Shown one piece after another: positions 5,572 to 9,203 of a DNA stretch of 23,803 nucleotides; positions within the stretch are counted from its first letter, which is position 1, and each line of letters starts with the position of its first letter. The position numbers were made by a program, and so were the translations under genes. A model generated the notes under the pieces. The model saw only the letters and a program-made list of their open reading frames with translations. It searched no databases and was not told the DNA's origin. The DNA is taken from IMG/VR virus record IMGVR_UViG_3300025093_000119, positions 1-23,803 of that record; one strand, given 5' to 3'. This DNA is from a virus.

Positions 5572-5703
5572 TTTGTTTGATTTTTGTGATTATTACTTGT
5601 TTATTATTTGATTATAACTCGCTACATAATTACTTTCATCTATCGCTACCCTATGTACGTATTACTTGCTGGCTGATAGTGTATGAATTATGGTTGGAGT
5701 AGA

Positions 5704-5793
5704 AGAGAAAGGGAGATTCGAACTCCCAACTATTTACTGTTGCTGATGTGGAAAACATAAGGTAAATCGCTTTTCCAATTAAGCTATTTCTCT
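5704..5793 (-). tRNA. tRNA-like element with irregular anticodon region
   Basis: Read on the minus strand, the ends pair as a perfect 7-bp acceptor (AGAGAAA with TTTCTCT, extendable to 8). The T arm is perfect (GGGAG, loop TTCGAAT, CTCCC), and the D arm reads GCTT, loop AATTGGAA, AAGC. The middle fits two ways. One is a 5-bp anticodon stem (ATTTA/TAAAT) with a 26-base loop, about 19 bases too long. The other is a type II tRNA with a mismatched anticodon stem (TTATG/CATCA) and variable arm CAAC/GTTG, but with 7 extra bases before it. The discriminator would be U. No anticodon is assigned. Confidence 0.6.
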
Positions 5794-6488: not shown

Positions 6489-6626
6489 TTAATAAAAACA
6501 GCTGAGAGTTTGACTGCTTGTACGCACATTAATAAAGGTTTCCCTCAATAACTCACACAACCATTTCTGATTGTAGTACGCATGGACACGAGTTAAGATG
6601 CTCGCCATCACTACTGTTGTGGTCAT
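6489..6626 (-). CDS. Possible small protein, 45 aa, with a 5-codon leader ORF
   Basis: The frame (start MTTTVVMASILTRVHAYYNQ) ends in TAA exactly at the TTAACCC leader of the gene at 6470, as real left-arm genes do. Upstream, a GGAGG lies five bases before ATG of a 5-codon ORF (MKLNL) whose TGA overlaps this ATG. GGAGG sites are not used by most Bacteroidota genes, and the frame uses codons (GCG, GTC) rare in neighbours. The stretch may therefore be the 3' end of the structured RNA next to it instead of a gene. Confidence 0.35.
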   Translation of the reverse strand: MTTTVVMASILTRVHAYYNQKWLCELLRETFINVRTSSQTLSCFY

Positions 6627-6659
6627 AAGTTCAATTTCATACCAACCTCCTTGCGAGAT

Positions 6660-7447
6660 ACACAGACTGCCGTCTGTTAGCTAGATACTACTTTATTCCT
6701 TCACGATTGAACTTGCGGTCCGCACGTGTCCCCATATTACAGAGGAATAAGTCCATTGTTGCCTTTATTGGGCTCACAACAGTCTCCAAGTTATTTTGCT
6801 TTTTTCTTGTTTTATTAGTTTAAGATGCCAATCTAATGGCTTAAAAGGATTCAGGTGAATAGTAGAAGGCACTTGGAGTTTATGTAATCGTGCTTCCTTT
6901 TGGGAAGTTTAGAATACTACTCCTACCTGCTTTTGCTTGTCAAAGCTACTCACTAATAACTAAACGTGAACACAAGATTTCTCTTAGCACTCTGTTTCAT
7001 TATCTAATAACAGCTTCAAGTGTGACAACACTATACTACCGTTACTTATTACAACGCTTATTGATATTTCTATCTCAAGAACCTGCCTGTCAGATTCTCT
7101 ATGTTTCTATCAGCCTGTAGGCCCATTCCAAAACATAGATGTTATAATACCTTTCTATAGAATGCAGTAAACTGCATCACAATAAGTTTCCTAATTAACT
7201 TATCATTTTATCCCATTGCTGGTTTATCTTAACGTGATGAAGGCTCACGGATATATTCTTTAGACACTAATACTCAGTCAAGCTGAGATATAAGCCACGG
7301 TATATATCAAACGTTCCAAGGATTCTCACCTTAGCATATTTAAATAAACTCCCACAAGGTTGCTATCCTTGAGGCTACTTCATTGATAAGAGTCTTTTAT
7401 CTTATACTTTCGCATTCTTAAGTCTACCAGCAATTGGATGGGAGTTT
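6660..7447 (-). ncRNA. Candidate large ornate structured RNA, about 790 nt
   Basis: No believable ORF covers this stretch, but perfect complementary helices tile it. Enclosing helices: 7346-7354/7439-7447 (9 bp), 7250-7256/7302-7308, 7182-7188/7197-7203, 7098-7106/7131-7139 (9 bp), 6784-6791/6871-6878 (8 bp), 6693-6700/6743-6750 (8 bp). Hairpins: 7355-7371, 7386-7405, 7273-7287, 7233-7249, 7162-7177, 7113-7122, 7019-7032, 6893-6907, 6819-6845, 6714-6724 and 6662-6677. The minus strand is favoured by flanking genes and purine-richer loops. Size, complexity and phage setting recall GOLLD and ROOL RNAs; identity is not established. The plus-strand ORF at 6890-7120 is rejected. Confidence 0.6.
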
Positions 7448-7449
7448 TA

Positions 7450-7481
7450 TGACACTTCTGTGACACTACTGTGACACTTCT
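7450..7481. repeat. Three tandem 11-bp repeats
   Basis: The unit TGACACTWCTG occurs three times head to tail (7450-7460, 7461-7471, 7472-7481, the last without its final G). The array abuts the 5' end (minus strand) of the candidate large RNA at 7447. An 11-bp period puts each unit on the same face of the helix, as for a DNA-binding operator. It could also be a loose tandem duplication. Confidence 0.75.
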
Positions 7482-7533
7482 AATTTAAATAATGGTTACC
7501 TTTGCAGGGGTTGATGTGGTGGATTATGCACAT
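7480..7533 (-). CDS. Possible micro-ORF, 17 aa
   Basis: The frame (MCIIHHINPCKGNHYLN) starts one base after the stop of the preceding micro-ORF. It has two Cys and three His in 17 residues, but this may be chance. Its stop falls in the tandem repeat array. Support is positional only. Confidence 0.25.
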   Translation of the reverse strand: MCIIHHINPCKGNHYLN

Positions 7534-7534
7534 C

Positions 7535-7603
7535 TTATTTCCATTTCCTACTGAACTTTATATTGAGTCCAAATAGAATACAAATCATTTCTAAGTAAAT
7601 CAT
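7535..7603 (-). CDS. Possible micro-ORF, 22 aa, hydrophobic
   Basis: The frame MIYLEMICILFGLNIKFSRK plus two residues is hydrophobic with a basic tail, like the membrane micro-ORFs at the left end of the window. It follows a left-arm leader (TTAATTAACCCA before ATG). It may be the first ORF of a short leader cistron for the large RNA. Confidence 0.35.
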   Translation of the reverse strand: MIYLEMICILFGLNIKFSRKWK

Positions 7604-7671
7604 TGGGTTAATTAATTAACGCTATATAATATCAATAAGATAGTAAATAGCTGATTAGAAAAATAGTTAAA

Positions 7672-7707
7672 TGTGTGAGTGGATGGACTATGCCACGCAC
7701 TCACACA
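7672..7707 (-). terminator. 10-bp hairpin spanning the stop codon of the 58-aa gene
   Basis: TGTGTGAGTG (7672-7681) pairs perfectly with CACTCACACA (7698-7707). The stop codon of the gene at 7688 lies in the loop, so the stem is made partly of the gene's last codons. On the minus strand TTTAACTATTTTTC follows, a loose U-rich tail. It is a terminator or a 3'-end protecting hairpin. Confidence 0.55.
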
Positions 7708-7864
7708 CTAATAGTGCTTCTTCAAAGTTTTTAACCTTTGGTAAACGGCAAAACTCTTCTGCTACATGACCAGGTGAATGGTTCAATTGATAAGAGCGTA
7801 CTTTATTGTTTATTGTGTTTAGCACATAAATAAATTCATCTGAATAAGCAATTACTTTATACAT
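7688..7864 (-). CDS. Small hypothetical protein, 58 aa
   Basis: This frame reads MYKVIAYSDEFIYVLNTINN, then KVRSYQLNHSPGHVAEEFCR and a C-terminus with two Cys (LLVCECVA). Beta strands (YKVIAYSDEFIYVLN, VRSYQL) precede a helix (HVAEEFC) and a second helix. The start ATG at 7864 follows a leader of left-arm type (TTCACTTAAAACAAATAAGTC). The gene lies between two candidate large RNAs and has a hairpin over its stop codon. No family is recognised. Confidence 0.65.
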   Translation of the reverse strand: MYKVIAYSDEFIYVLNTINNKVRSYQLNHSPGHVAEEFCRLPKVKNFEEALLVCECVA

Positions 7865-7895
7865 GACTTATTTGTTTTAAGTGAATAATATTTAG

Positions 7896-8385
7896 AAAAA
7901 AAGGAGCGACTTTCGAGAACAAAGTTCTACTCCACACATATTCCTATGTGTCTGAGCTCGCCCGTAGTTATTGTTTCATGTTCCTTTGTTACATATGACA
8001 CTGTAACAAACAACCATTCCATGCAATAACCGTATAAAAGCAAGTTCCTATCTATTACCGAATATAACGGCTGAATGGTCAAGGAGCCAATAGATGAATT
8101 TCACATCTTAAACCTTGCTTTTAAAATAACAAGTGGCTACTATTGTTCACCACTTGTACCTAATGGACAATTATCCATTAGGGTTAACAGTGTCTGCTAA
8201 CGTAGTTAGAACACCGTTTAGTATTATATAAGTATCTTTCACAGTCTTGGGTATTATGAATGATAAATAAACACTAAAGACAAATTAAATGCTATCACCT
8301 ATTTCTTGGTCTTTAGTATTGGCATATAACAGGTATAACTGGACCTGTTCTGAGTACGTTGTTATTTCCCTCTTGTTAATAGAGA
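7896..8385 (-). ncRNA. Candidate large ornate structured RNA, about 490 nt, with 3' terminator
   Basis: There is no credible ORF, but there is a dense set of perfect helices: 8370-8373/8381-8384, 8328-8334/8343-8349 (7 bp), 8273-8281/8309-8317 (9 bp), 8186-8193/8211-8218 around 8197-8201/8205-8209, 8160-8167/8174-8181 (8 bp), 8129-8136/8150-8157 (8 bp). A branched domain follows: 8036-8044/8114-8122 (9 bp) enclosing 8050-8056/8089-8095 and 8069-8072/8085-8088. Then come 7985-7992/8003-8010 (8 bp) and 7934-7940/7945-7951, whose loop on the minus strand is GGAA, a GNRA tetraloop. The 3' end is GGAG/CTCC around an AGAAC/GTTCT hairpin followed by seven U. Resembles ROOL/GOLLD in style; class not shown. 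Confidence 0.7.
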
Positions 8386-8415
8386 GAAAAAAAGAAACAC
8401 GCTCGATAGAGCGTG
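8386..8415 (-). terminator. Rho-independent terminator after the 58-aa gene at 8436
   Basis: CACGCTC (8398-8404) pairs with GAGCGTG (8409-8415) around a 4-base loop. On the minus strand the stem is followed by TTTCTTTTTTTC. It ends the transcript of the gene at 8436-8612 and separates it from the candidate RNA downstream, unless that RNA is made by readthrough. Confidence 0.85.
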
Positions 8416-8426
8416 AGACTTTTGTT

Positions 8427-8448
8427 CTCTGAGGCTTAGACCTCAGAG
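8427..8448 (-). other. Hairpin containing the stop codon of the 8436 gene
   Basis: CTCTGAGG (8427-8434) pairs perfectly with CCTCAGAG (8441-8448). The stop codon (8436-8438) is in the 6-base loop and the last codons form one arm. This is the same arrangement as at 7672-7707. A ribosome reaching the stop would melt the hairpin, so it may couple termination of translation with RNA stability. Confidence 0.7.
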
Positions 8449-8612
8449 ATGGTGATTTTATCACCAGCGGCGAGGTCCATAGCCTCCACTTCCGCCGCGG
8501 AAATCAACATTGGTTTAGTATAGAGTACTACACCGTTGTTTTTCGTAGGCACGAAGTGAACCTTAACCCAATCAGGGTTCGAGGTTATTTGAATTTCTCT
8601 AATTTCCAGCAT
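8436..8612 (-). CDS. Small protein, 58 aa, possibly highly expressed
   Basis: From ATG 8612 the protein is MLEIREIQITSNPDWVKVHF, then VPTKNNGVVLYTKPMLISAA and a C-terminus ending AAGDKITISEV. Alternating strands and the closing MDLAAGDKITI suggest a small five-strand barrel, OB- or SH3-like. The frame stays open to a GTG at 8657, but that codon lies in a hairpin and the A/T-rich stretch before 8612 looks like a normal leader. Codons are clearly more GC-rich than in neighbours (GCC, GAC, CTC, TCC). With its own control region and double hairpin end, it is probably a separate, strongly expressed transcript. No family is assigned. Confidence 0.68.
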   Translation of the reverse strand: MLEIREIQITSNPDWVKVHFVPTKNNGVVLYTKPMLISAAEVEAMDLAAGDKITISEV

Positions 8613-8639
8613 AGCGAATGAAATTTTAGAAATGAAAAC

Positions 8640-8752
8640 TATCGTGTTTTCCCACACGATTGAAAGGGGGGTCTTTCGACGCCGCTACAAAGCAGGGGTC
8701 TTTGATTTAGATGGTCCACACCCTCAATAATTTTTTTAAAAAATTTTTTTTT
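8640..8752. promoter_or_regulatory. Divergent control region: hairpin, 9-bp direct repeats, A/T tract
   Basis: Between the two arms lie a hairpin (ATCGTG/CACGAT, 8641-8660), two direct copies of GGGGTCTTT (8668-8676 and 8695-8703, 27 bases start to start), and a 26-base pure A/T run ending in a T tract (about 8727-8752). The G-rich repeats stand out against the A/T-rich background and are candidate operators for the gene at 8436. The A/T run would bend or melt easily. On the minus strand CAAATGTA at 8780-8787 is a reversed TAnnTTTG element, so a leftward promoter is possible there, without a good -33 box. Confidence 0.5.
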
Positions 8753-8787
8753 CATAATCCACATAAGGTATGGGCTATACAAATGTA

Positions 8788-8818
8788 TTTGATGGTCTAA
8801 TAAAATGTATTATCTTTG
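8788..8818 (+). promoter_or_regulatory. Bacteroidota-type promoter of the right arm
   Basis: TTTG at 8788-8791, a 19-base spacer, then TATCTTTG at 8811-8818. This fits the Bacteroidota primary sigma consensus TTTG-N19-21-TAnnTTTG with no mismatch. Transcription would start a few bases upstream of the ATG at 8835, giving a very short leader. The site is one of the main reasons for placing the host in Bacteroidota. Confidence 0.75.
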
Positions 8819-8834
8819 ATAAAAAGATGAGGCA

Positions 8835-9203
8835 ATGGTTATTCCTATTGAAGTAAAAAAGGATAATTTTTATAGGTATTATGTAGAGTTAATTAATCCG
8901 ATAATAAAGCTTAGAAAGAGAGAGCTGGATGTATTGGCGAGATTGATGTATTATAATAATGAGTACAAGGATCTAAAGGAGGATATTAGATTTAAGATAG
9001 TATTTGATTATGATACTAAAGTGAAGATAGCAAAGGAATTGGATATTAGCTTGGATGTACTGAATAACAATTTTTCAGAACTAAGGAACAAAGAGATTAT
9101 AAAGGATAACAAGTTGACTAAAGGATTTCAGATCTATCATAATGATAAGGAACATAAGTTGACATTTAGATTTGGTTTTGAGAATGGAAAAAAGAATTCC
9201 TAG
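8835..9203 (+). CDS. Winged-helix-like DNA-binding protein, 122 aa
   Basis: The core reads KLRKRELDVLARLMYYNNEY (residues 26-45), then a helix-turn-helix-like segment (KIAKELDISLDVLNNNFSEL, residues 65-84), then a wing-like pair of strands (KEIIKDNKL, FQIYHNDKEHKLTFRFGFE). That is the layout of a winged helix as in MarR/GntR-like or replication initiator modules. It is the first gene of the right arm, 17 bases after the promoter, suiting a regulator of the late genes. Regulator versus structural adaptor cannot be settled. It overlaps the next gene. Confidence 0.72.
   Translation: MVIPIEVKKDNFYRYYVELINPIIKLRKRELDVLARLMYYNNEYKDLKEDIRFKIVFDYDTKVKIAKELDISLDVLNNNFSELRNKEIIKDNKLTKGFQIYHNDKEHKLTFRFGFENGKKNS

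Follow-up and report, generated by a model that had tools for sequence, protein, structure and literature searches.

On the minus strand of a crAss-like phage fragment lies a conserved structured element that carries no coding signature, bears exchangeable arms, sits beside a divergent GOLLD RNA and displays a hairpin loop that recurs elsewhere. The fragment, a virus record of 23,803 bases, is referred to here in its entirety as the window. We consider it highly probable that the element acts as a structured RNA of the minus strand, and most likely it represents a new, narrow RNA family that is neither GOLLD nor ROOL. Both of these are abundant phage RNAs whose structures have been solved, and we know of no function for either. 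Overall, the best explanation of the element, to which we assign an even chance, is a noncoding phage RNA that presents a protein-recognized loop, that of hairpin P5, and serves as a stable binding partner or decoy. With its loop shared and a GOLLD nearby, the element is more interesting than its core alone would be. A crAss-like phage with both a divergent GOLLD and a second, unclassified structured RNA offers a new natural context for studying GOLLD and ROOL, while the P5 loop, as a short, strictly conserved RNA sequence, could be used as bait for a partner in Bacteroidota or their phages. If confirmed, it would mean that phage groups common in the gut and the sea share an RNA signal.

The terminase, portal and major head proteins of the window match PHROGs families, and among the listed hits the terminase is ~37–44% identical to those of named Crassvirales. 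A terminase search recovered four contigs with the same region from IMG/VR, all of one crAss-like clade (L001, L002, L004 and L005), and the set did not grow when fragments of the RNA were used in pattern scans. A further relative with a 72% identical terminase, L014, lacks the core: its corresponding slot contains no more than a short hairpin, and the RNA therefore looks clade-specific. Consistent with a narrow distribution, no additional convincing full-core member emerged when a model of the core, R1, was run over 84 loci and 49 whole records, nor was any further core member found by R1 in eight named phage genomes, by pattern scans of IMG/VR and GTDB, or by BLAST against phage genomes. One candidate full core, in L057, was dismissed as a chance match of the core model (E = 0.035).

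Small leftward genes fill the left part of the window up to 8657 and rightward genes begin at 8835, which places the RNA region, 7896–8385, on the leftward side of the switch. Directly upstream is a small minus-strand gene (8436–8657), a 73-amino acid ORF without a family hit, whose intrinsic terminator (8386–8415, minus strand; a hairpin at 8398–8415 with a T tract) directly precedes the RNA region. Small ORFs neighboring the RNA region have no match in Pfam or PHROGs. Among relatives (L001, L005, L014), the slot at 8436–8657 is occupied by unlike small genes. Farther right, in the divergent intergenic region, the stretch 8690–8727 around GGGGTCTTTGATTTAGATGG is very conserved and occurs also in L001, L002, L013 and L014, and a Bacteroidota-type promoter (TTTG...TATCTTTG) is seen at 8788–8818 on the plus strand.

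A preliminary description of this DNA had proposed that 7896–8385 encodes an ornate phage RNA of about 490 nt. Folding of the interval is indeed strong: the minus strand reaches −137.9 kcal/mol against a mean of −105.2 (z = −5.45, with 0 of 100 dinucleotide shuffles as stable), and the plus strand attains z = −4.28 (again 0 of 100). The perfect helices that had been claimed are present, and the interval is largely ORF-free as described, with no convincing ORF. As a conserved unit, however, the 490-nt RNA shrinks to 8127–8323 (~200 nt). In a patchwork alignment of the five contigs, conservation covers this core together with a stretch at 7600–7711 that has a terminal hairpin and an AT-rich palindrome, and 7896–8126 is variable sequence, missing from most relatives; the original 490 nt therefore comprise a conserved core and private decoration. 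The genomic slot of the core is identical in all five contigs and flanked by a terminator: the small leftward gene, followed by that terminator, is on one side, and the leftward block that comes next and includes the divergent GOLLD is on the other. Homologues of the core show no protein-coding signature, their indels being 1, 2, 3 and 5 nt long and no reading frame being conserved.

Within the core (8127–8323, minus strand), RNAalifold predicts five hairpins from the five homologues, all on the minus strand: P1, a long hairpin with a conserved AAAUAGGUGAUAGCAUUU tip (8273–8318); P2 (8233–8265); P3 (8186–8218); P4 (8159–8182); and P5 (8129–8157), whose tip, GUGAACAAUAGUAGC, occupies 8136–8150. 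Conserved single-stranded stretches and loops also lie within the core. On the minus strand the consensus energy falls 6.5 sd below that of column-shuffled alignments; on the plus strand the margin is 5.2 sd (−5.24). When the helices were aligned by hand, double compensatory changes were found in 7 of 47 pairs, with two each in P1, P4 and P5 and one in P3; one-sided standard changes are all G-U, and the three non-standard cells all fall in P3. In an automatic alignment, the covariation score exceeds those of all 500 shuffles and all slid controls. Of the two findings that the preliminary description said would refute the RNA, a coding signature in homologues and helices without covariation, neither was encountered. 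In a set of five sequences from two sub-clades, which the double changes mostly separate, we regard the compensatory changes as good, not final, evidence for P1–P5.

Good folding on both strands raises the question of what the inverted repeats act as. A DNA-level element, such as a replication, packaging or recombination site, would also fold well on either strand, and the region adjoins terminase genes and is a hot spot for inserts. Nonetheless, the wobble changes suit a minus-strand RNA only: the minus-strand structure contains 14 G-U cells and no A-C, making a DNA element improbable. A plus-strand RNA was likewise rejected, as plus-strand folds place A-C mismatches (9 cells) at the sites of minus-strand G-U pairs.

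Outside the core, the element is a mosaic. At its 5′ side, a hairpin of 9 bp including one G-U (8365–8389, minus strand) has a counterpart in most relatives, as read by eye, with unrelated sequence; the adjacent 7-bp hairpin P0 (8328–8349, minus strand) is constant in position and varies in length and sequence. Between the core and the terminal hairpin, L004 has no insert, possibly through an assembly effect because its contig ends there. L001 and L002 carry a degenerate tRNA-like arm, which in L001 scores a sub-threshold 19.9 bits against a cut-off of 29, and their inserts are no more stable than shuffles. L005 and the window share an 89-nt module, with further arms and a 58-amino acid ORF in the window only. 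Insert modules are thus exchanged among relatives while the core and the terminal hairpin remain constant. Degenerate tRNA-like arms and inserts of ordinary stability are what a neutral spacer, or a remnant in decay, that folds by chance might contain, but the conservation of the core and its compensatory changes over five contigs render that account very improbable, the least likely of those considered here.

Several details of the preliminary description concern this variable part. Its branched module was located at 8037–8125 (minus strand), with a ~8-bp closure (~8–9 bp against the 9 bp described), and is found only in the window and L005, at 95.5% identity. A tRNA fold for this module was considered and discarded: a T-loop is not seen, the stability is weak (z = −1.05), and neither ARAGORN nor Rfam matches a tRNA there. 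Nor was the suggested tRNA-like element in the same arm borne out, both programs detecting no tRNA in 7400–8900. The window-only arms (7896–8036, minus strand) do include the described GGAA tetraloop, on a 7-bp stem at 7934–7951. They also include the run of seven U (7896–7902) that, following a multi-stem, had been taken for the RNA's own terminator; the run exists, but no intrinsic terminator is scored there, and as a conserved feature the idea is not supported, since nothing similar occurs in the four homologues. Instead, the conserved 3′ landmark of the region is the terminal 12-bp hairpin (7672–7709, minus strand; z = −5.28), after which a U-rich stretch follows. The 58-amino acid ORF (7688–7864, minus strand), for which no homologue was found, lies between the arms and this hairpin.

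Before the next leftward genes comes an AT-rich imperfect palindrome of promoter-like character, TTATTGATATTATATAGC (7618–7650, minus strand). Its 29-bp center is identical in L001, L002 and L005, and a similar ATTGCTATAATATAGC occurs in L014; the palindrome is possibly a phage promoter or operator. Directly after the palindrome lies a micropeptide ORF, MIYLEMICILFGLNIKFSRKWK (7535–7603, minus strand), with relatives in L001, L002 and L005 that show many differences at third codon positions.

How does this RNA relate to known systems? The Rfam covariance-model check that had been recommended assigned 7896–8385 to none of GOLLD, ROOL, HEARO or any other Rfam family, and the GOLLD, ROOL and HEARO models each gave no match up to E = 5 in 7400–8900. 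Like GOLLD (RF02032), the element is a structured phage RNA that combines a conserved domain with a variable portion in which tRNA-like elements can occur; conservation in GOLLD, however, extends over >800 nt as opposed to a ~200-nt core here, and the sequences are unrelated. With ROOL it shares the character of a multi-hairpin, phage-borne RNA whose function is not known, but in the window the core is not beside a tRNA array, only a single tRNA-like gene being present (5702–5793). A third parallel is provided by Vibrio phage ICP1, for which RNA-seq has shown an abundant unclassified ncRNA of ~800 nt (PMC7567579). Both are phage intervals without ORFs, yielding an unclassified RNA that RNA-seq established in ICP1 and that is predicted here; the phages are unrelated, and model R1 found no match in ICP1.

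The link to large ornate RNAs drawn in the preliminary description thus does not hold for the RNA itself, but it does for the neighborhood: the 3′ domain of a divergent GOLLD lies ~1 kb along the same strand. A sensitive scan of 6500–7720 matched 6500–6927 on the minus strand to positions 1–416 of the full GOLLD model (68.4 bits, E = 2.5e-17), and the whole RNA probably spans 6491–7334, as a neighbor of the core RNA and not a part of it. This score is below the Rfam gathering cut-off of 150 bits, which is why a first scan had missed it. GOLLD is also present in L001 (66.4 bits), within an 854-nt block that is 93% identical to the window (L001 5047–5898); one GOLLD 5′ hairpin tip, near 7100–7140 in the window, is swapped for unrelated sequence in L001. 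None was detected in 47 other IMG/VR records, many of them fragments, or in seven named crAss-like phages. Earlier work describes GOLLD as a cage-forming phage RNA of unknown function, with variable 5′ regions and a linker that sometimes contains tRNAs, and cryo-EM of other members revealed a 14-mer RNA cage (PMC12286853).

Such variability invites the question of whether the core could simply form the 5′ portion of a single, very long transcript of GOLLD. The two RNAs share a strand with ~1 kb between them, the variable 5′ regions of GOLLD have linkers in which tRNAs can occur (PMC12286853), and L001 and L002 have tRNA-like arms. Against an extended GOLLD 5′ domain, the micropeptide ORF intervenes between core and GOLLD, joined in L001 by an 80-amino acid ORF that ends directly before the conserved 854-nt block. 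That block, already of the usual GOLLD length, is therefore a unit separate from the core RNA. The two RNAs, moreover, have no sequence similarity. We therefore consider a single extended GOLLD unlikely, though co-transcription of the core RNA and GOLLD is possible.

The broadest connections of the element are made by the tip of P5. Scanning IMG/VR with 15 bases of this tip, GTGAACAATAGTAGC, returned 73 contigs. Once the five focal sequences are set aside, 69 viral occurrences remain, of which 27 have at least six complementary bases on each flank, where ~0.2 would be expected by an estimate from six random pairs with G-U allowed; these 27 include near-identical copies and by our own count represent ~15 independent stems. 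In the hairpins found elsewhere, the loop is unchanged on unrelated stems, with a T run immediately after many of them in the manner of intrinsic terminators (for example, L132 2675, L160 913, L168 66, L134 2511 and L057 5150, the last on the minus strand). The crAss-like L057 was found via its terminase and not the motif, and there the loop tops a terminator-like hairpin that overlaps the end of an ORF. Among the matches listed for GTDB cellular genomes, stems of this length occur at 4 of 118 places, and two of these four have T runs, both in Bacteroidota MAGs. Where the 11-mer occurs again in the whole records that were scanned, its stems measure 0–3 bp. Hairpins with exactly one mismatch in GAACAATAGTA were absent from 1.58 Mb of viral loci, many of which had been chosen by the exact 15-mer. 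A covariation table of 20 P5-loop stems was excluded as proof because the hairpins had been selected for having stems.

When three motif-bearing loci were searched against phage genomes, one proved to have DNA in common with Flavobacterium, Tenacibaculum and Cellulophaga phages and a second with crAss-like, Flavobacterium and other phages, partly through a tRNA gene; the third had no match. From its sequence, the P5 tip may fold as a bulged-G motif (GAA/AGUA). Open-access literature held nothing relevant on the loop sequence or on noncoding RNA of crAss-like phages.

The resemblance to terminators underlies the main rival to a trans-acting RNA, namely that these are cis-acting intergenic hairpins which terminate, insulate or process the leftward transcript in the interval that separates the small gene from the GOLLD block. 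The core sits between a terminator and a promoter-like palindrome, a U-rich stretch follows the terminal hairpin, and P5-type hairpins of other phages often precede a T run; most instances of the loop elsewhere resemble plain terminators, which fits a cis role equally well. Yet a 200-nt core with conserved loops and single-stranded stretches exceeds the needs of termination, and P5 of the window has no real T run after it. A purely cis role is accordingly a serious but minority prospect in our estimation. P5-type hairpins differ from ordinary phage intrinsic terminators in that the 11-nt loop is invariant on unrelated stems.

We favor, instead, a noncoding RNA that presents the P5 loop, while recognizing that an intrinsic terminator directly upstream and good folding of the plus strand count against it. 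The element would be transcribed leftward, through read-through or from a putative promoter, and P1–P4 would form a scaffold presenting the loop GUGAACAAUAGUAGC to a protein of Bacteroidota hosts or their phages. Elsewhere, the same loop would be carried by terminators at the ends of phage transcripts. Variable arms, some of them degenerate and tRNA-like, may tune processing or host-specific contacts, and during infection the RNA would most likely serve as a stable binding partner or decoy. Recognition of the loop by a protein is plausible, at somewhat less than an even chance; a decoy or scaffold role in trans is a more tentative proposition. Equally tentative is a fuller proposal, to be taken as a whole: that a new phage ncRNA family shares its P5 loop with many unrelated Bacteroidota phages, that the loop binds a protein marking or protecting the 3′ ends of phage RNAs, and that the RNA is dedicated to carrying this site or serving as its decoy, beside GOLLD.

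Two further observations concern genes for tRNA-like RNAs. The gene at 5702–5793 of the window (minus strand; Rfam tRNA, 52.8 bits), with a counterpart at L001 4231–4322 (minus strand), has ~17 extra nt in its anticodon loop and is called by ARAGORN as tRNA-Ile(tat) with an intron; this is unusual in a bacterial virus, and the gene perhaps encodes a non-decoding tRNA-like RNA. Finally, the viral contig L127 contains a permuted tmRNA at 2305–2772 on the plus strand (Rfam, 62.9 bits, with ARAGORN in agreement), and also carries a P5-type hairpin beside a tRNA-Gln.
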